Shown: positions 8,611 to 42,168 of the stretch, piece by piece
Numbering within the stretch: position 1 is the first letter of the stretch
Layout of the letters: each line of letters starts with the position of its first letter
Assembly (NCBI RefSeq): GCF_001870225.1
Contig: NZ_CP017675.1
Span: forward strand, 2,893,305-2,935,472
DNA: 42,168 bases
Direction of reading: 5' to 3'
Origin: Gloeomargarita lithophora Alchichica-D10
GTDB lineage: Bacteria; Cyanobacteriota; Cyanobacteriia; Gloeomargaritales; Gloeomargaritaceae
Made by a program: the position numbers and the translations under genes
Notes under the pieces: model-generated
What the model was told of the DNA's origin: nothing
What the model saw: the letters and a program-made list of their open reading frames with translations, nothing else
Databases searched by the model: none

Positions 8611-11600
8611 TTAACTGCGACCCAATTCATCCCGGATATTGGCTTCAATGGTGGCCACCTGCCCATCACTCAACCCCAATTCCTCCTGCAATTCTAATAA
8701 TTGCGCCTGTTCATCGAGGCCAATTTCCCCATCATTTTCCAAGCAGGCCCGAAACATTAACCCGTATTCATAACCCGCCAGTTCCGGGTCATGGGTTTGG
8801 GGTTGAAAACGGGCAATAATTTCCTGGGCTATTTCCGGGGTCACGCCGTATTTCTCTCGCAATTTATCGAGCATCGTTAATTCCTTCTCAGAAGGTGTTT
8901 TGCCCCCCCGATAACAGGCTTCTACTAATTTGGTGAATTTATCCACCGCACTGTCTAAAACCTGGGAAACCGGCGCAGTTACTTTAGGAGCCACAGCGGG
9001 TTTAACCGTGGCATTGGGGGTGGGAGTCGCCCCCGGTTCAAACAAACGCTGATTGCGTACACAATTACTAATGGCATTTTCCACCATTTGATATTCCGGA
9101 TTGTCCCGTCCCCCCGGTGTGGTCTGTTCAAATTGTTGTAAATAGCCCATCAACTGCTCGTACAATGCCCGTTTGGTTTCCCGATTATTAGCCTGTTTCA
9201 GGATTTTTTGAATCCCATCGTTGAGCAATTCCCGCGCCCGCCGGTTTTGGTCAGCCAGGAGATAATCTTCCGCTTCTTTCCAGGTATTCCCCAGGTTCAA
9301 ATTCCGTTCTAAACCGGTGGCACTATCCTGGTAACCCAGTTTAATTTCCACGTAACCGGTAATTTGATTTTCTGAGGCAGTCAAAAGCTGAAATACCCGC
9401 CCTAGAACTAGATTTTCCCGTACCTGTATCTCTTCCGAAGAAGCGGGCATAATATCCCCAAACTGTTGACTGTCTTGATGGGTATGCAGGGGATTGCGAT
9501 CCATTTGGGAAACCGTGCGATATATGGTACGCATCCGTTCCATCCCCTCTAGCAACCGCAAAGGAAATGCCCCAATTTCCCGCACAAAATACACATGATG
9601 GGGATCATTGTAGGGACGAATATCCTTATCAGTTAATGTGGTACTTTTCCGCAGTAGGGGTAGGAGGGCAGATACCGCTGGGTCGGTCGGTTTATTCCCC
9701 CCCTGAATGCCCACCAAAGTCTGCCGTTTTTCCGGGCGGTCATCCCAACCCAAACGGGATTGTTCTTGGCTAAAACGCAAGAACGCTTCGCTCTTTTCAA
9801 ACGTGGTTTTTAACTGGGATTCCTGTTGCTCCAGGGTGGGATATTGGGTGATAAATTTTTGGGCGACGGATACTTTCAATTGTTCGCTAGTGCTAAATTC
9901 ATCAATGGCGCGGTTGAGAATGCGCTGGTACAAATCCTGCTGGCGTAAATACTCAAAAGTATGCAGATCAAACAAGCGGCAGGTCATGCCATTCAATACA
10001 TCCTGGGTCAGGCTTTGATACACCGTTTCAGTACGGTTGGTCAGGGTTTTTTGATAGACCTGTTCAATATCCTGAGGGTCATAAAGTAAAATCCCATTCA
10101 CCGTCAAGGTACTGGTTTCACGGGTATAAACCTGTTCCCGCTCGGCCAAATTGCGCCGCAGGGTTTCTAGGTTTTTATCAAAGTTATTCAGGTCATTGAT
10201 TAACCGTTGGGTTTCCTCTTTCAAGGCATCCAAAAGCGGTGCGGCCAAGGTGCGAGCTTTGACCTCGACTTTGGAGACATAAATAGATTCCAGAGCTTGC
10301 ATGATGGCATTGAAATCATCATCAATCACTTTTTTGCGATTGAGGAGCATCATTTGTTTGGCGTGATTGTCAATCTGTTTGAGTAAAATTTGCAGGGCTT
10401 GACTCGCCGAACGCTCCCGCGCCAACCAATCTTTCTGCCGGGACTGGTCAAAAGTGGTGCGAAATTCTAGCAAAACCTCCAACAATACTTCTAAAAATTG
10501 CCGTGTCCATTTCGGTCCCCGGAACCGGTCTTCCACCATTTGCGCTACCAAATCCCGCAATTCTTTCGTTTTTTGGGGGATCAAACGGTTCAGGTTATCC
10601 CACATTTTTTGGAAGTAATCGCTCCAGCGCCGGGGGTCGGTGTCCGCATCGCTAAAGTGGATACGATATTTTTCTTCTTCCAGGGAAATAAACCGCAGTA
10701 AATTTTCAAAAGGGACATTCAAATCGTTGCGCCGTTTGCGTAAAACCGCCACCCAATCGGCAACTTCTTTGCTGTAGGGTTTCATGTTGTCCCCCACGCT
10801 CAAATTATCCAAAAGTTGATGGTCGTTTTCCGATTCTGCCAAGCCCAAATTGGGTAAAATTTCGGTCTTGATCACATCCCGCATCGCCGTGGGTGCCGGG
10901 GTCGGGTTGCTCCACCAATCGGCCAGAGCTACCGCCAACCGGGAAGCACAGGCATTTAACACCCGTTGCACCGGAAATTGGATACTGGCTAAACCAAAGG
11001 TAATGTAATTTTGGGGATAACCCAAGGGGTCAGGACTCGCCCAATGTTTGCGAATATTATCCCGTACCAATTTTTTATACTGGCTAAACCCGGAGGAAAA
11101 ATCTAAAAATACATTCTGCGCCACCATTTCTAATACGGATTCCAGGTTGGGCAGGGTAACTTTATCATTGCTATTGCCCACCAAATAACAAAACCCAAAG
11201 GGGGTGTCTTGGGCGTTTTGGCTACTAATCCGGTCGGTGATATTATTGCTATATTGACTCTCAAAACGGGTGGTGGGACGGGAATAATGATTCAGTTCAC
11301 TCAGGGCGGCGTAGGCATTGGCAATCACCCGGTCGCCCAGGCCAGAAAATGCCCCCGGCAAGACTAAAAAAGCACAGGTTTGCGGTAAATCGGAGGGCGG
11401 CACCCAATCTCGGACATTATATGCTAAATCTAAAACCATTCCAGAACCGGTGCCCCCACTCAGGGAACAAACGACAAATACATTCACCCCTTTATCCAAG
11501 GACACCCCCCAGCGATCCAGCATGAATTTCTCCTGGCCGACAATGCGGGAACGGGCATTGGCAAAGGCTTGTTTAATGGTTTGGTAATTCACCGTAAAAG

Positions 11601-11967
11601 CGAATTTTCCCAGGGCGCGAATTTGTCCCGCCCCCGCCAAAATCGAATCCGTACCGGCCAGTTCCGGGGGAAACCAATCGGTGAGATATTCGTAGTCGGC
11701 AATGCGGTTCAAAATGGCTTTGGCATTGTCAACTTTTGCCCAGACTTGCTCCACCGGACGCAGGGAAATATCCTGTTTTAAGACCGTTTGGGGTTCGGAA
11801 ACTTTGGCATTTTGCTCCGTATCCAAATGCAGGAAGGAAACAATGGGTAACGCATCCAAACTACCGTAGGTTTCCACAATCATGCGCCGGATTTTCACCA
11901 TGACTTCTTTGCCCGTACCGCCCAGACCGACGATGATGGTGGGGGTCATGCCGATGTAATCTGCCAT
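8611..11967 (-). CDS. large tubulin-like GTPase (Tubulin_2 / FtsZ-like family)
   Basis: The 1118-residue product begins with a tubulin/FtsZ-type nucleotide-binding domain: PTIIVGLGGTGKEVM (9-23), a GAGQIRALGK segment (112-121) and the tubulin signature SLSGGTGSG (168-176). This fits the bacterial tubulin-like family (Pfam Tubulin_2) proposed to remodel membranes. The long middle is helical with a coiled coil around EETQRLINDLNNFDKNLE. After an Ala/Pro/Thr linker, the C-terminus holds two similar helical units (LTMLDKLREKYGVTPE... and AQLLELQEELGLSDGQ...), TerB-like in appearance. I chose the ATG at 11967 because aggaa precedes it and conservation starts there; the frame opens to 12039. Cellular role unknown. 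Confidence 0.85.
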   Translation of the reverse strand: MADYIGMTPTIIVGLGGTGKEVMVKIRRMIVETYGSLDALPIVSFLHLDTEQNAKVSEPQTVLKQDISLRPVEQVWAKVDNAKAILNRIADYEYLTDWFPPELAGTDSILAGAGQIRALGKFAFTVNYQTIKQAFANARSRIVGQEKFMLDRWGVSLDKGVNVFVVCSLSGGTGSGMVLDLAYNVRDWVPPSDLPQTCAFLVLPGAFSGLGDRVIANAYAALSELNHYSRPTTRFESQYSNNITDRISSQNAQDTPFGFCYLVGNSNDKVTLPNLESVLEMVAQNVFLDFSSGFSQYKKLVRDNIRKHWASPDPLGYPQNYITFGLASIQFPVQRVLNACASRLAVALADWWSNPTPAPTAMRDVIKTEILPNLGLAESENDHQLLDNLSVGDNMKPYSKEVADWVAVLRKRRNDLNVPFENLLRFISLEEEKYRIHFSDADTDPRRWSDYFQKMWDNLNRLIPQKTKELRDLVAQMVEDRFRGPKWTRQFLEVLLEVLLEFRTTFDQSRQKDWLARERSASQALQILLKQIDNHAKQMMLLNRKKVIDDDFNAIMQALESIYVSKVEVKARTLAAPLLDALKEETQRLINDLNNFDKNLETLRRNLAEREQVYTRETSTLTVNGILLYDPQDIEQVYQKTLTNRTETVYQSLTQDVLNGMTCRLFDLHTFEYLRQQDLYQRILNRAIDEFSTSEQLKVSVAQKFITQYPTLEQQESQLKTTFEKSEAFLRFSQEQSRLGWDDRPEKRQTLVGIQGGNKPTDPAVSALLPLLRKSTTLTDKDIRPYNDPHHVYFVREIGAFPLRLLEGMERMRTIYRTVSQMDRNPLHTHQDSQQFGDIMPASSEEIQVRENLVLGRVFQLLTASENQITGYVEIKLGYQDSATGLERNLNLGNTWKEAEDYLLADQNRRARELLNDGIQKILKQANNRETKRALYEQLMGYLQQFEQTTPGGRDNPEYQMVENAISNCVRNQRLFEPGATPTPNATVKPAVAPKVTAPVSQVLDSAVDKFTKLVEACYRGGKTPSEKELTMLDKLREKYGVTPEIAQEIIARFQPQTHDPELAGYEYGLMFRACLENDGEIGLDEQAQLLELQEELGLSDGQVATIEANIRDELGRS

Positions 11968-12041
11968 AATTCTGGTTCCTGTAGGGGGCGTTTGGCTGTA
12001 TTGTAAGGGATTCCTTTTCGCTTTGTCTTTGAACGGCAAAA

Positions 12042-35804: not shown

Positions 35805-36350
35805 ATGCCAGATGTGGGGCAGAATTTTTTGCAGTGGGTGTTGACCCAAACCACCCAGGTGGCCTCTGAGATACCTGCTGACCCGGTGTTTGCTTGCTTT
35901 CAGGCGTTGGGGTGGCGGGTGGAGCGGTTGCCCCAGGGGGTGCGCTGGCGGTATCGGGGTCAGCATGGCAGTTGGTGGTGTTTGGCTCTACTGCGGGGGG
36001 AATGTTTCACCTGCTATTCCCGTTATCCCCAGGCGGCTCGCCCGGAGCAGTTGGTACCCTTGGGTGAATTAATCGCCCGGATGAACTATGGGTTGCTGTT
36101 GGGCAATTGGGAATTGGACTGGCGGGACGGGGACATCCGTTATAAAACGAGTCTGGACTTGCAGGGAATGAGCTTGGAGAGCCGGTGGTTAAAGCGGTTT
36201 TTGGCCAGTCATTTGGGGACGTTTGACCATTATTGGCCAGCGGTAAACGCCCTGTTGACCCAGGGGGTATCGCCCGTGGTTGCCCTAGAAGCGGTGGCGC
36301 AGTTGCCGAAGGAGCGGGATTTAGGTCACCCTAAAGGCAAACCCCTTTAA
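35805..36350 (+). CDS. YbjN-domain protein 1
   Basis: The 181-residue protein has the YbjN fold, which resembles type III secretion chaperones: FACFQALGWRVERLPQGVRWRYRG, then WWCLALLRGECFTCYSRYP, LIARMNYGLLLGNWELDWRDGDIRYKTSLDL and a helical C-terminus. Family members in other bacteria influence stress response and motility, but a molecular function is not established. It is followed 9 bases later by a second YbjN gene of about the same length, clearly a tandem paralogue (both have the NYGL(L/F)(L/I)GN(W/F)E(L/M)D(W/F)RDG block). Confidence 0.88.
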   Translation: MPDVGQNFLQWVLTQTTQVASEIPADPVFACFQALGWRVERLPQGVRWRYRGQHGSWWCLALLRGECFTCYSRYPQAARPEQLVPLGELIARMNYGLLLGNWELDWRDGDIRYKTSLDLQGMSLESRWLKRFLASHLGTFDHYWPAVNALLTQGVSPVVALEAVAQLPKERDLGHPKGKPL

Positions 36351-36359
36351 CCCAAGGCC

Positions 36360-36875
36360 ATGTTAAACCCTCCGATGCAACCCGTGCCCATGCTACAAAC
36401 CGTGATGGATTTTTTGGTAAAAGATGACTGGAATTTTGAACTGGTCAAACCGGAGCGGGTGGAATCGCCGGTGCAGGGGGAAAGTGGGATGTGGCTGTGC
36501 GGGGTAGAAATCGCCCGGGAACGGTTCTGCGTGGTGTATTCCTACTGTCCGTTGGCGATTCCCATTGCCCACCGCCCCAGTATGGCGGAGTTTATTACCC
36601 TGGCGAATTATGGTTTGTTTATTGGTAATTTTGAAATGGATTTTCGGGATGGGGAATTGCGTTTCAAAACCAGTTTGGATGTGGGGGAAAGTGATTTAAC
36701 TGTCCCATTGGTGCAACCATTGATTTACCATAACGTGGCCACGATGGATGAATACCTGCCGGGGATCATGGCGGTGGTGCATGGGGGGGTATCGCCCCGG
36801 ATTGCGGTGGCTCAAATTGAAAGGACTGGGGATGGGTTAGCCGAATCCAATGAATTTGATGGCAGGGTATCTTAA
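36360..36875 (+). CDS. YbjN-domain protein 2
   Basis: The 171-residue paralogue of the preceding gene shares NYGLFIGNFEMDFRDGELRFKTSLDV and a similar helical C-terminus (DEYLPGIMAVVHGGVSPRIAVAQIE). Overall similarity is moderate, so the duplication is not recent. The N-terminus (residues 1-45) differs. The next gene starts 3 bases after its stop, with a putative shared transcript. Function unknown; chaperone-like binding of a partner such as the following membrane protein is a guess. Confidence 0.87.
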   Translation: MLNPPMQPVPMLQTVMDFLVKDDWNFELVKPERVESPVQGESGMWLCGVEIARERFCVVYSYCPLAIPIAHRPSMAEFITLANYGLFIGNFEMDFRDGELRFKTSLDVGESDLTVPLVQPLIYHNVATMDEYLPGIMAVVHGGVSPRIAVAQIERTGDGLAESNEFDGRVS

Positions 36876-36878
36876 CCA

Positions 36879-39218
36879 ATGGTGAAAGCCCCCCGCCGGG
36901 ATTTAGTCCGGGAACTGGTCAAACGGGAGCAGGAGCAGGTCACCAGCCGGATCAGTTTTTGGCGTTCCCAGGCATTTTACCAGGTTTATCGTTTGGTGCC
37001 CGCCCGGTTCCAGTGGTTACTGCCCGGTTTGCAGGAGTGGGCACAGGATTTATTCCGCCGTCAGGAAGCGGAGGAGCAGGAACAGGCGGCGGCGGCGTTA
37101 TCGGCAGTAGAGGCGGCGGGGGCGATTGTACCCCCGGCGGATTTACGGGTGCCACTGATCCCGGAAATGACCTTGATTCAGGGAAATCGGGGGCGGTATC
37201 AGGTGCAGGAGTTTGTGGGGATGCGGGGGCAGGGACGGCTGTACCGGGGGGTGCAGGTGAATAGTCGGCAGGTGATTACCCTGCGGGAGTATGTGTTGCC
37301 AACGGAGCAGTTTCCCACCCAGGAAATCCGTTATCGTCAGCAATTATTTAGCCAAACGGGTGGCGTGACCCTGGCCGATAGTCGCAGGCAAAATTTACGG
37401 TTGGTGGAACCCTGGGAGGCGATCAGCGACCAACGGGAAGCCCGCTGCTACCTGGTTTCCCAGGGGGATTTGGATCGGGGCATGACCCTGGCGCAACGGT
37501 TACAGCAGGGGGCGTTTTCTCCGGCGCAGGTGCGGCAGGTACTGCATCAGGTTTTGCAGACCTTGGAAGCATTACACACGCAAAAATTTCGCCTGCCGGG
37601 GGGGCAGATTCGCTCCGGGTTGGCGCATGGGCAGTTGGGCTTAGAGCATTTGCTCTGGGTGCCGGTCAAAAGCGGCGGGACACCGGCGGAATTGCGGTTT
37701 TTGGTGTATGTCACGGATTTGGGGTTGTGGGAGTTTTTGTTTATTCCCAGCGGGACAGAACGCCCCATATCCCATCCCCGCCGGGACTTGGTGGCCTTGG
37801 GGTATGCCGGGTTGCAACTGTTGCATGGGGCGGCCAGTTTACATACTTACCTAGACCCCAAGGAGGAACGGCATTGGCCGGTGGGGGTGCCTTCCGGGTT
37901 GAAGGAGGTGATTTTGCGCCTGCTGGAACTGGGTTCTCCATTTGCCGATGCCGCAGAAGCCCGGCGGGTGGTGGGGCAGGTGCATTTGGGCAATCCCGGC
38001 GAGGGTCGGGCGGCTTTAACGGCTGACCCGGAAGCCCCTTTACCCCCATTCCGCTGGTGGCGGTGGTGGCCTTTACCCCTGCTGTTGTTGGTGGTGGGGG
38101 TGGCCTGGTGGGGGTGGTTGCGCTTATTTCCGGCGCAACGCTCTCTATTTACCACGCCCAACCGGGAACCCCTGTTGTGTTGCATGGCGGAAGTCGCCAA
38201 TGTACCAAAGGGACAATTTAAGTACAGCGGCGAGCGGGGGGGCACCTGGGCGTATGTACTCCAGCAGGTGAATTTAGTGCAAATTGGGCAGAGTTTAACC
38301 GCTGAAATTCAACGGCTATTTCCCCGACTTGACCTCACCTTTATTCCGGCGGACAGCAATCAGGCGGCCTTAAACGCTTTGAATCAGGGGCAGGTGGATT
38401 TTGCCGTCACGCCCTTGGTGGATCAGACCACAACGGAGGGGCTGGGTCGGGATGTCGCCTGGGCGGTGGAAAATGTGGCCTACGATGGCTTGGCGGTGGT
38501 GGTGGTATTTAGCTACGCCCAGCGGCGGGATAGTCTGCCCCGTTATCTCAATGGTCAAATTACCCTGGCGCAACTGCGGCAACTCTACACCGGGCAAATC
38601 ACCAACTGGCAAAGCCTGGGCGGGCCGAATCTACCCGTGCGGCTCTATATTCCCACGGATACGGAAGCGGTCGCCCTGTTTGAACAACGGGTTTTGCAAG
38701 ATGAGGGGTCAATTCGCAGTTTTCGGCGGCTGGTTTCTTTAATTCCGATTAGCCGTCGTGCCCAGCAGGTGGTGACTATTACCCCCCTCACGTCCCAGGA
38801 ATTATTGCGGCAAATCATCCAAGATTTCGAGCGGGAGCAGGTGGGCGGCATTGGGTTTAGTACCTTTAGCCGCGTCTTTGGTCAATGTGCCGGGTATCCG
38901 CTGGCCATTAGCGAGCCGGGACAACCCGCCGTGCAAGCCCTGATTCAGGATAATGGCCGCCCCATTGACCCCACCACCAACCTCTGTGATAAAAAAGGGG
39001 GATACCGCCTCAAACCAGCCACCTTCGCCAGTGGTCGTTACCCCTTGGCCTACCCGTTGAGCGTTGTCTATGCGCGGGACAATAGCCGTCCCCCCGTGGG
39101 GGCTTGGTTTACCGAACTCCTGCGAACAACCGAAGCCCAGCGTTTGCTCCAAAAAGCCGGTTTAGTCCCCTTGCAGGAACTTGACGTTTTGAACCCAGTG
39201 AATTTACCATCCCCCTAA
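36879..39218 (+). CDS. pseudokinase-TM-phosphate-binding-like fusion protein
   Basis: The 779-residue protein has three parts. Residues about 105-375 look like a Ser/Thr kinase fold with degraded catalytic sites: glycine loop VGMRGQGRLYRG (113-124), VITLREY where VAIK is expected, AHGQLGLEHLL (249-259) in place of HRDLKxxN, and DLG (280-282) for DFG. A single strong TM helix spans about 397-417 and follows a Trp-rich stretch. Residues about 438-770 match the PstS-like periplasmic binding fold (NVPKGQFKYSGERGGTW, GQVDFAVTPL, GQITLAQLRQLYTGQITNW). Cytoplasmic kinase-like and periplasmic binding orientation fits a transmembrane receptor. The start follows the YbjN 2 stop by 3 bases. Confidence 0.8.
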   Translation: MVKAPRRDLVRELVKREQEQVTSRISFWRSQAFYQVYRLVPARFQWLLPGLQEWAQDLFRRQEAEEQEQAAAALSAVEAAGAIVPPADLRVPLIPEMTLIQGNRGRYQVQEFVGMRGQGRLYRGVQVNSRQVITLREYVLPTEQFPTQEIRYRQQLFSQTGGVTLADSRRQNLRLVEPWEAISDQREARCYLVSQGDLDRGMTLAQRLQQGAFSPAQVRQVLHQVLQTLEALHTQKFRLPGGQIRSGLAHGQLGLEHLLWVPVKSGGTPAELRFLVYVTDLGLWEFLFIPSGTERPISHPRRDLVALGYAGLQLLHGAASLHTYLDPKEERHWPVGVPSGLKEVILRLLELGSPFADAAEARRVVGQVHLGNPGEGRAALTADPEAPLPPFRWWRWWPLPLLLLVVGVAWWGWLRLFPAQRSLFTTPNREPLLCCMAEVANVPKGQFKYSGERGGTWAYVLQQVNLVQIGQSLTAEIQRLFPRLDLTFIPADSNQAALNALNQGQVDFAVTPLVDQTTTEGLGRDVAWAVENVAYDGLAVVVVFSYAQRRDSLPRYLNGQITLAQLRQLYTGQITNWQSLGGPNLPVRLYIPTDTEAVALFEQRVLQDEGSIRSFRRLVSLIPISRRAQQVVTITPLTSQELLRQIIQDFEREQVGGIGFSTFSRVFGQCAGYPLAISEPGQPAVQALIQDNGRPIDPTTNLCDKKGGYRLKPATFASGRYPLAYPLSVVYARDNSRPPVGAWFTELLRTTEAQRLLQKAGLVPLQELDVLNPVNLPSP

Positions 39219-39457
39219 TGCACCCTCCTGACCCCGGCATTGACCTAGCCGTAACCCATCCGCCCACCAGTTTTGCGGCACCTATAGGCATCCAGGTCGC
39301 TGAGCCAGAACTGCGGCGGCGGCTGGCAAAAACCGCCTACCGGCTTGCCCACGATAGTTTATTGCTCGAACGGCTGAACCAACGGGTGTACGAATTACTC
39401 ATCACCGACCGGCGGCAGAGGCGAGAACGGAGCGGGCAGTCCGAACATTGGCTCTAA
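39218..39457 (+). CDS. small basic protein of unknown function
   Basis: The 79-residue product has a Pro-rich N-terminus and a single strong amphipathic helical region, ELRRRLAKTAYRLAHDSLLL then ERLNQRVYELLITDRRQRRE. I recognise no family. The ATG overlaps the previous stop by one base (TAATG), so it is translationally coupled to the receptor-like gene and is probably the last gene of the operon. The helix could bind the receptor or nucleic acid; this is a guess. Confidence 0.62.
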   Translation: MHPPDPGIDLAVTHPPTSFAAPIGIQVAEPELRRRLAKTAYRLAHDSLLLERLNQRVYELLITDRRQRRERSGQSEHWL

Positions 39458-39526: not shown

Positions 39527-40060
39527 ATGAATGGCAACCAAATCAGCAACCAAGTTTTGAATTATGTGGCCGCCAATCTCTTTTATGTGGAATTAGAAAG
39601 TAGTTTAACCGCCTGTTTTACCCAGTGTTCCGGTTTAGGTTTTACGGTCAGCCCGAAACGATTTTATGAAGGTGGTGTCAACGACCAAGAACGCTTATTG
39701 ATTCAACCGCCCAAATATACTGCGGTGAAATTAACCCGGGGCATTACCAACAGCAACATTTTTTTAGAATGGGTGTCTCAATCCTATGGCACTGGCAAAC
39801 AAAAACGCCGAAATGTGAACATTTTATTATTCAATCAAGCAGGAGAAACCATGCAATGTTGGACACTTATTGGGGCATTTCCTAGTGGTTGGAAGGGACC
39901 AACCTTAAAAGCGAAAGCCAATGCCCTAGCCATTGAAGAACTAAGTCTTTTGTATGAGGGACTTCAGTTCAGTCGCAATTCGGGTAGTGGTGTCACCATG
40001 TTAAATGGCCGAGACAGTTCTGGGTTTTATGGTAGTGGTTTAGCCTATCCATCCAAATAG
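39527..40060 (+). CDS. contractile injection system / phage-like tail tube protein
   Basis: The 177-residue protein matches the T4 gp19-like tail-tube family found in R-type tailocins and extracellular contractile injection systems (eCIS). It has FYVELESSLTACFTQCSGLGF near residue 19, the diagnostic LTRGITNSNIFLEWV (about 71-85), MQCWTLIGAFPSGWKGP and a conserved AIEELSLLYEGLQFS. A Ser/Gly-rich ~25-residue C-terminal tail is longer than usual. The other eCIS genes are not in the window, but such systems are encoded as clusters. Codon use and base content are more AT-rich than the upstream DNA. A ribosome site aagagg precedes the ATG. Confidence 0.88.
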   Translation: MNGNQISNQVLNYVAANLFYVELESSLTACFTQCSGLGFTVSPKRFYEGGVNDQERLLIQPPKYTAVKLTRGITNSNIFLEWVSQSYGTGKQKRRNVNILLFNQAGETMQCWTLIGAFPSGWKGPTLKAKANALAIEELSLLYEGLQFSRNSGSGVTMLNGRDSSGFYGSGLAYPSK

Positions 40061-40068
40061 TGTGAAAT

Positions 40069-42168
40069 ATGACCCCAGAAATTGAGTCTCCTGCACCTTT
40101 AGGTGTGCAATCTTCTTTATTAACTATTCAGCCCTTAGGTCAAGCTAATTTTTTGGCTCCATTAGGGTCAAGAAACCTAACCGTATTACAACCAATTAGT
40201 TCAGGAAATTGGTTAGGTGATGGAGATGATTTCTCAGAGGATTCACCAGTCATATCTGATGAACAACCATCGAATAATTCTATATCATCATCTTATCCTC
40301 CCAATGTCAATACACAACTCCGCACAAAAAATACAATTCAAAGATCACCAGATACAGAGTTGAATACTTCCAAAATGAATAATTACATTGATAATAACCA
40401 TACTATTCAAATTCCTACTCAAAAAATTGCCACCCCAAGCATGACAGAATCAACAGTGCAAAAGGTGAATGACCCCAGTGCTGATATTCCAACTATTCAA
40501 CCATCTGTAAATGAAATAACTCCTACCCCAGAAATTACACCGCCATCTACGACAGAATCAGTTGTTCAGAAAGCAAGCGAATCTAATGTTAATGTTCCAG
40601 TTATTCAACCCTGTGTAAGTGAAATAACTCCTACTCCAGAAATTACAACACCAACTACGATAGAATCAACTATTCAGAAAGCAAGCGAATCTAATGTTAA
40701 TGTTCCAGTTATTCAACCCTGTGTAAGTGAAATAACTCCTACTCCAGAAATTACAACACCAACTACGATAGAATCAACTATTCAGAAAGTAAGTGAATCT
40801 AATGTTAATGCTTCTACAATTCAGCCATCTGTAAGTGAAATAACTCCTACTCCAGAAATTACAACACCGACTACGATAGAATCAACTATTCAAAAAGCAA
40901 GTGAACCCAGTGCTGATATTCCAACTATTCAACCATCTGTAAATGAAATAACTCCTACTCAAGAAATTACAACACCGACTACGACTGAATCAACCGTTCA
41001 GAAAACCAGTGAATCTAATGTTAATGTTCCAGTTAATCAGCCATCTGTAAGTGAAACAACTCCTACCCCAGAAATTACACCGCCATCTACGACAGAATCA
41101 GTTGTTCAGAAAGCAAGCGAATCTAATGTTAATGTTCCAGTTATTCAACCCTGTGTAAGTGAAATAACTCCTACTCCAGAAATTACAACACCAACTACGA
41201 TAGAATCAACTATTCAGAAAGTAAGTGAATCTAATGTTAATGCTTCTACAATTCAGCCATCTGTAAGTGAAATAACTCCTACTCAAGAAATTTCTACACC
41301 AATTACAACAGGATCAACTACTCAAAAAGCAAGTGAACCCAGTGCTGATATTCCCACAATTCAACCATCTGTAAACGAAATAATGCCTATTCAAGAAATT
41401 ACAACACCAACTACGATAGAATCAACTATTCAGAAAGTAAGTGAATCTAATGTTAATGTTCCAGTTATTCAACCATCTGTAAGTGAAATAACTCCTACTC
41501 AAGAAATTACAACACCGACTACGATAGAATCAACTATTCAGAAAGTAAGTGAATCTAGTACTGATATTTCAACAATTCAACCCTCTGTAAATGAAGCAAC
41601 TCCTACTCAAGAAATTTCTACACCAATTACAACAGGATCAACTACTCAAAAAGCAAGTGAACCCAGTGCTGATATTCCCACAATTCAACCATCTGTAAAC
41701 GAAATAATGCCTATTCAAGAAATTACAACACCAACTACGATAGAATCAACTATTCAAAAAGTAAGTGAACCCAGTACGGATATTCCTACTATTCAACCAT
41801 CTGTAAACGAAATAACGCCTACTCCAGAAATTGCTACACCAACCACAACAGAATCAACAGTGCAAAAAGTAAGTGAACCCAGTACGGATATTCCTACAAT
41901 TCAACCAACTGTAAACGAAATAACGCCTACTCCAGAAATTGCTACACCAATTACAACAGAATCAACTATTCAAAAAGTAAGTGAACCCAGTGCTGATATT
42001 CCCACAATTCAACCATTTGTAAATGAAATAACTCCTACTCCAGAAATTACTACGCCAGCTACAACAGAATCAACAGTGCAAAAAGTAAGTGAACCCAGTG
42101 CTGATATTTCAACAATTCAACCCTCTGTAAATGAAATAACTCCTACTCAAGAAATCACAACACCGACT
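40069..42168 (+). CDS. partial: very long 36-residue repeat protein, open at window end
   Basis: The frame from the ATG at 40069 stays open for 700 codons to the window end and has no stop. The first ~126 residues are low-complexity (Asn/Ser/Pro), including TIQRSPDTEL. From 40447, a strictly phased repeat begins: QKVSEPSADIPTIQPSVNEI followed by TPTPEITTPTT(T/I)EST(V/I). It is 36 residues (108 bp), about 16 copies, with no insertion or deletion. There are no aromatic residues in the repeat. The sequence looks disordered and extracellular or fibrous. It starts 8 bases after the tail-tube gene. Gene product and function unknown. No signal peptide is visible. Confidence 0.85.
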   Translation, partial: MTPEIESPAPLGVQSSLLTIQPLGQANFLAPLGSRNLTVLQPISSGNWLGDGDDFSEDSPVISDEQPSNNSISSSYPPNVNTQLRTKNTIQRSPDTELNTSKMNNYIDNNHTIQIPTQKIATPSMTESTVQKVNDPSADIPTIQPSVNEITPTPEITPPSTTESVVQKASESNVNVPVIQPCVSEITPTPEITTPTTIESTIQKASESNVNVPVIQPCVSEITPTPEITTPTTIESTIQKVSESNVNASTIQPSVSEITPTPEITTPTTIESTIQKASEPSADIPTIQPSVNEITPTQEITTPTTTESTVQKTSESNVNVPVNQPSVSETTPTPEITPPSTTESVVQKASESNVNVPVIQPCVSEITPTPEITTPTTIESTIQKVSESNVNASTIQPSVSEITPTQEISTPITTGSTTQKASEPSADIPTIQPSVNEIMPIQEITTPTTIESTIQKVSESNVNVPVIQPSVSEITPTQEITTPTTIESTIQKVSESSTDISTIQPSVNEATPTQEISTPITTGSTTQKASEPSADIPTIQPSVNEIMPIQEITTPTTIESTIQKVSEPSTDIPTIQPSVNEITPTPEIATPTTTESTVQKVSEPSTDIPTIQPTVNEITPTPEIATPITTESTIQKVSEPSADIPTIQPFVNEITPTPEITTPATTESTVQKVSEPSADISTIQPSVNEITPTQEITTPT
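40447..42168 (+). repeat. 108-bp tandem repeat array, about 16 units
   Basis: Units begin at steps of exactly 108 bp; the word gaaataactcct or a close variant recurs at 40513, 40621, 40729, 40837, 40945 and on to 42133. Units differ by several substitutions but keep length and frame. Some blocks are duplicated at longer range: 40561-40680 equals 41101-41220 (offset 540 = 5 units) and 41281 onward resembles 41605 onward (offset 324 = 3 units). It is base-poor in GC compared with the rest of the window. The array continues beyond the end. Confidence 0.95.

Follow-up and report, generated by a model that had tools for sequence, protein, structure and literature searches.

A membrane pseudokinase with a PstS-like outer domain as a probable component of cytoplasmic-type contractile injection systems in cyanobacteria

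A membrane protein in which a degenerate kinase fold is joined through one transmembrane (TM) helix to a PstS-like periplasmic-binding-protein (PBP) domain accompanies one type of contractile injection system (CIS), a phage-tail-like machine, wherever it is found, and is therefore probably the part that lets the envelope hold or fire the machine. The protein, named C1 here, is the product of the ORF at 36879-39218 (+) of the window, i.e., the whole stretch of 42,168 nucleotides that was analysed, which comes from a genome of the cyanobacterial phylum represented by one contig of 3,049,282 bases. Taken together, the observations below make it probable that C1 is a dedicated membrane component, an adaptor or trigger, of the cytoplasmic-type CISs of cyanobacteria. 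The best reading of its layout is that it acts in the manner of the Streptomyces protein CisA, with different domains as its building blocks. A preliminary description, which had examined the single protein, rightly saw in it a dead kinase fold joined to a PstS-like domain; its suggestion of phosphate as the ligand found no support, and the CIS cassette and the co-occurrence with the sheath had escaped it.

Domain architecture of C1

An AlphaFold2 model of C1 made with 24 orthologues has a mean pLDDT of 81.5, with values near 90 for the greater part of residues 96-370 and largely between 65 and 96 for residues 445-768, and Foldseek recovers both folds from it (PBP 4jwo at E 2.9e-13; kinases at about 1e-8, including the pseudokinase domain of Mycobacterium tuberculosis Rv3910). 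Structure prediction, which the preliminary description had proposed as a check, thus models both the kinase fold (about 96-370) and the PBP fold (445-768), and these results, along with Pfam and hydropathy, bear out its reading of a degenerate kinase fold, one TM helix and a PstS-like domain. Hydropathy and charge bias, the N side of the TM helix being the more positive in 42 of 51 orthologues, predict a bitopic protein with the N-terminus inside and a single TM helix, placed at about residues 399-419. The set of 51 orthologues spans pairwise identities of 31-94 %; in the divergent orthologue from genome G066, the outer domain was modelled and the kinase part came out at low confidence. NCBIfam offers no name for C1 and a weak PstS match alone, while some records of the family carry the label serine/threonine protein kinase. 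An assignment to defence was considered and dropped, the PADLOC matches being to a generic kinase (PD-T4-6) only. No relative of C1 was found in phage and viral collections, which speaks against a prophage gene.

The kinase-like half of the window protein, taken alone, matches Pkinase at E 0.092, below the Pfam cut-off; the profile of 24 orthologues picks up Ser/Thr kinases of solved structure (S. aureus PknB at E 4.6e-5), and model, Foldseek and profile agree on a protein-kinase fold. In the window protein, the VAIK lysine is replaced by R136, the HRD motif reads H250-G251-Q252 and the catalytic asparagine is H257, with the DLG aspartate kept as D280, just as the preliminary description had it. 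Alignment of the 51 orthologues sets these changes apart: the HRD position reads HGN in 50 of them and HGQ in the window protein only, so that the aspartate is lost in 51/51; the catalytic asparagine is replaced by Ser or Thr in 49 and by His in the window protein, with one member keeping Asn; and the VAIK position retains Lys in 45/51, with Arg in four including the window. The DFG aspartate is invariant, the glycine loop (G114, G117, G119) is kept in 43-48 of the 51, and E149, taken as the helix-C Glu, is mostly conserved. Judged from this alignment, loss of the HRD aspartate is universal in the family, and that of the VAIK lysine is peculiar to the window protein and a few other members. 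Having neither the HRD aspartate nor the catalytic-loop asparagine of active Hanks-type Ser/Thr kinases, C1 proteins appear, as a family, to carry an inactive kinase. As parts that serve nucleotide binding are kept and the catalytic base is lost, the fold suggests a switch or scaffold, perhaps one that binds ATP, rather than an enzyme.

The outer half matches Pfam PBP_like_2 above the cut-off (E 3.5e-11) and, among PDB sequences, Sll0540 (E 2e-8); solved PstS proteins are also reached by the orthologue profile, and the closest PBP folds are those of phosphate-binding proteins. The fold is present, but the phosphate Arg, SGT and SSR loops of PstS are not: the R-P-S-E-S-G-T loop of Sll0540, which holds the phosphate Arg and SGT, aligns to I-P-T-D-T-E-A in C1, and the SSR loop is absent from the alignment. 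Since E596 in the altered loop is conserved in 49/51 orthologues, the change is family-wide, and with the phosphate-binding residues gone, the phosphate receptor proposed in the preliminary description is left unsupported. C670 and C703 are invariant (51/51 orthologues), which is consistent with a disulfide in an oxidizing compartment.

Elsewhere in cyanobacteria, the C1-type PBP domain is joined to an intact Ser/Thr kinase, a caspase (C14) or a CHAT domain (loci L201 2404-4359, L207 983-3049 and L204 1890-4025), and can thus be seen as an outer module that moves between proteins. A second PBP protein of the window's genome (L152 1644-2828; G000 at about 624 kb) carries a zinc-ribbon-like CxxC...CxxC N-terminus and a hydrophobic segment ahead of its PBP domain.

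Genomic context and alternative roles

Table 1. Features of the C1 cassette in the window and kinase-like TM proteins of Deinococcus CIS clusters
Feature	Coordinates	Strand	Evidence and remarks
YbjN-like ORF 1	35805..36350	+	PF10722 E 3.5e-5, above cut-off; 9 bp before ORF 2; probable first gene of the C1 operon
YbjN-like ORF 2	36360..36875	+	PF10722 E 0.01, below cut-off; clusters with ORF 1; ends 3 bp before C1
C1, membrane pseudokinase-PBP protein	36879..39218	+	ATG start, 779 aa; ORF, Pfam, structure, orthologue family
C1 kinase-like domain, residues 99-370 (fold about 96-370)	37173..37988	+	Model, Foldseek, profile
C1 single TM helix, about residues 395-419	38061..38135	+	Hydropathy, charge bias, helix in model
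C1 extracytoplasmic PstS-like PBP domain, about residues 440-768	38196..39182	+	Pfam, Sll0540 alignment, model, Foldseek
c3, 79-aa ORF	39218..39457	+	Conserved between C1 and tube gene
gp19-fold tail-tube protein, Cis5/Afp5-like tube adaptor	39527..40060	+	PF06841 E 1.1e-31; TIGR02241 above cut-off
Start of 914-aa repetitive ORF, extends past window	40069..42168	+	L112 5374-8118
Deinococcus kinase-like TM proteins	L215 10529-15352; L217 10433-15274; L218 6662-11470; L219 11631-16409; L220 10070-14860		

The short gap upstream of C1 and the TAATG at 39216-39220, in which the start of c3 overlaps the C1 stop, place the gene inside a tight same-strand run (Table 1). No counterpart of the tandem YbjN-like ORFs (35805-36875) clustered in the other loci compared, c3 has no Pfam or NCBIfam match, and a promoter/terminator scan gave results near chance. 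The tube adaptor also matches Pvc5/Afp5 and, below the cut-off, NF053770 CIS5_fam (E 5e-20). Beyond the window, Afp7-like (PF19266 CIS_tube) and VgrG-like genes follow (L112 9060-11693), the former being the only PF19266 gene found in this genome; a distant locus at 442-449 kb holds the sheath gene together with three gp19-type genes and an AAA ATPase. The 914-aa repetitive ORF, parts of which the record masks with N, sits between the tube and Afp7-like genes, and in some orthologous loci its position holds a large protein without Pfam matches. At 8611-12039 (-), the window also encodes a bacterial tubulin-like protein of 1142 aa (Tubulin_2, PF13809 E 2.7e-93).

Profile searches over 24 loci show C1, c3 and the tube gene in this order and on the same strand in 18; in three others C1 has a sheath, Afp7/VgrG or eCIS_core gene as its neighbour, and the same cassette order surrounds the divergent C1-like ORF of G066, counted beyond the 18. 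In 5/24 loci, a histidine kinase, a NarL-type response regulator, C1 and an FHA gene lie side by side in a block that abuts sheath/Pvc16/tube genes. The same four genes are adjacent on a Brasilonema plasmid, and in Nostoc/Calothrix-type loci C1 stands between the histidine kinase/response regulator pair and the FHA gene. These arrangements raise the alternative that C1 regulates the expression or assembly of the CIS as an input to a two-component/FHA pathway, with no contact with the particle: the placement in the Nostoc/Calothrix-type loci fits a purely regulatory role as well, and GerE regulators, sometimes with a histidine kinase, have been reported beside eCIS loci (PMC8213781). We consider this unlikely, because most loci lack those regulators and yet have C1 next to the tube gene, the window's own cassette, with no histidine kinase, response regulator or FHA gene, among them.

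The presence of eCIS_core genes near C1 in several loci, together with its predicted membrane location, might also be read as pointing to a cargo, chaperone or immunity protein that shields the membrane of the producer from its own CIS or effectors. This is very improbable, as C1 is conserved whatever effector adjoins it, its orthologues being mostly 35-47 % identical to the window protein, and persists in loci whose surroundings yielded no eCIS_core gene.

Co-occurrence with one sheath lineage

Within a family represented by 218 genomes, C1 and the sheath lineage of the window's genome are each present in 119, with an overlap of 117, so that C1 occurs in 117/119 sheath-positive against 2/99 sheath-negative genomes. 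Phylum-wide (n=386), where C1 was counted as full-length matches (21) and the sheath lineage likewise occurs in 21, the figures are 20/21 and 1/365; the Fisher tests on these counts ignore phylogeny and linkage, and some of the co-occurrence is due to common descent and physical linkage. Of the 37 genomes of the 218-member family with a PF19266 CIS gene and no sheath of this lineage, only one has C1. The exceptions are few: the sheath-positive genome without C1 in the phylum set is G066, with its divergent C1-like ORF; the two sheath-only genomes in the family of 218 are drafts, broken into about 1010 and 1300 contigs; and C1 occurs without the sheath in two genomes, G336 and G464. The two genes lie at most 20 kb apart in 82 of 98 same-contig cases. 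Linkage is thus common but not general, and unlinked pairs persist too: in the window's genome, which has both genes, about 2.5 Mb separates their loci in record coordinates. The three C1-bearing plasmids are the top three plasmids for the sheath. At the thresholds used, C1 and the sheath are both absent from the other genome of the window's genus. By its conserved cassette and its co-occurrence, C1 is a CIS-associated core gene. That C1 is instead a receptor for phosphate or another solute, its pseudokinase signalling nutrient status and its CIS link incidental, is the least probable of the readings, since the resemblance of its PBP fold to phosphate-binding proteins is set against the loss of the phosphate loops across the family and the near one-to-one co-occurrence with the CIS.

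Comparison with known systems

Among solved sheaths, that of the window's genome is nearest to the S. coelicolor CIS (E 3.4e-114, against 2e-54 for Anabaena All3325) and does not fall in the All3325 lineage that marks the Anabaena-type tCIS. Firing of the S. coelicolor cytoplasmic CIS, the sheath of which is solved (8BKY/9GTP; PMC10066040, PMC12237407), needs CisA, a bitopic membrane protein (PMC12237407). CisA homologues are present in 79 % of CIS-positive Streptomyces and in none that are CIS-negative (PMC12237407, PMC10066040), and Roseiflexus CISs are reported to be without close cisA homologues (PMC12998442). As is predicted for C1, CisA (SCO4242) is bitopic with a cytoplasmic N-terminus and one TM helix, and its outer domain has been described as resembling periplasmic substrate-binding domains (PMC12237407, PMC10066040). 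It is also tied to the solved sheath lineage nearest to that of C1, but the N-terminal part, a kinase fold in C1, is largely unstructured in CisA. At the position of CisA, Streptomyces plasmids encode proteins that combine zinc ribbons, a TM helix and an F5/8C-type domain and that, from position and layout, are putative CisA homologues; between the outer domain of C1 and one such positional CisA-like protein (not SCO4242), no sequence similarity was found. The thylakoid-anchored CIS (tCIS) of Anabaena PCC 7120 is, like the CIS of C1, cyanobacterial; it is held at a membrane, to which it is anchored via Cis12/Cis13 extensions (PMC8894136). Its sheath, All3325, is related more distantly to the C1-associated sheath, and the word kinase is absent from the main text of the paper that describes it (PMC8894136).

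Five Deinococcus plasmid CIS clusters each encode a kinase-like/TM protein of 1592-1613 aa that adjoins Afp7-like/VgrG genes (Table 1). All five have VALR or SALR, with Arg for the VAIK Lys, and read HGN (four) or HGD (one) at the HRD position; an FHA domain is confirmed by profile in one and annotated in two more, and the annotation of some is FHA domain-containing serine/threonine-protein kinase. They share with C1 a CIS cluster of related sheath lineage, the kinase fold, one TM helix and a long outer part, but differ in keeping the catalytic Asn and DFG, in having the FHA domain fused and in an outer part that is not a PBP domain. No experimental work on these proteins was found, and the Haloferax CIS cluster has no gene annotated as a kinase.

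Two further parallels may be drawn. Rv3910 (MviN) of M. tuberculosis, whose pseudokinase domain is a fold match to C1, is likewise a membrane protein with that domain in the cytoplasm and acts with the FHA protein FhaA, but its membrane part is unrelated, as is the process (cell wall). In the T6SS, the transmembrane kinase PpkA and the FHA protein Fha control a contractile machine post-translationally; PpkA is an active kinase, whereas C1 is without the catalytic base.

Proposed role of C1

The predicted CisA-like topology, the similar genomic role and the Deinococcus counterparts together lead us to propose that C1 is a membrane adaptor or trigger. Its TM helix would fix the protein in the cytoplasmic or thylakoid membrane, with the PstS-like outer domain reading the state of the envelope or binding some ligand, while the cytoplasmic pseudokinase would serve as a docking site or switch that works without catalysis and touches the CIS particle. 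The contact may lie on the tube adaptor/baseplate side, either direct or via an FHA-domain partner where one is encoded, and C1 would thereby tether the particle to the membrane or permit it to fire, as CisA does in Streptomyces. More tentatively, and with less than even confidence, membrane pseudokinases might be a recurrent trigger part of cytoplasmic-type CISs in cyanobacteria and Deinococcus, in which a non-catalytic fold couples an envelope sensor to firing.

Implications

In the literature, we found no described system of the shape of C1, in line with the preliminary description, no pseudokinase linked with contractile injection and no account of a kinase/FHA/CIS combination; this holds for a search that covered few subscription papers, so that an earlier mention is possible. 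For the way in which cytoplasmic CIS particles find the membrane and receive the signal to fire, CisA is the described membrane factor that was found. C1 is a candidate for the corresponding factor of cyanobacterial CISs; it occurs in over 100 of the species genomes that were searched, and a counterpart is named in Deinococcus. The work thus suggests a defined job for a conserved family of bacterial pseudokinases, and in cyanobacteria C1 may link the sensing of the envelope to CIS-mediated lysis.
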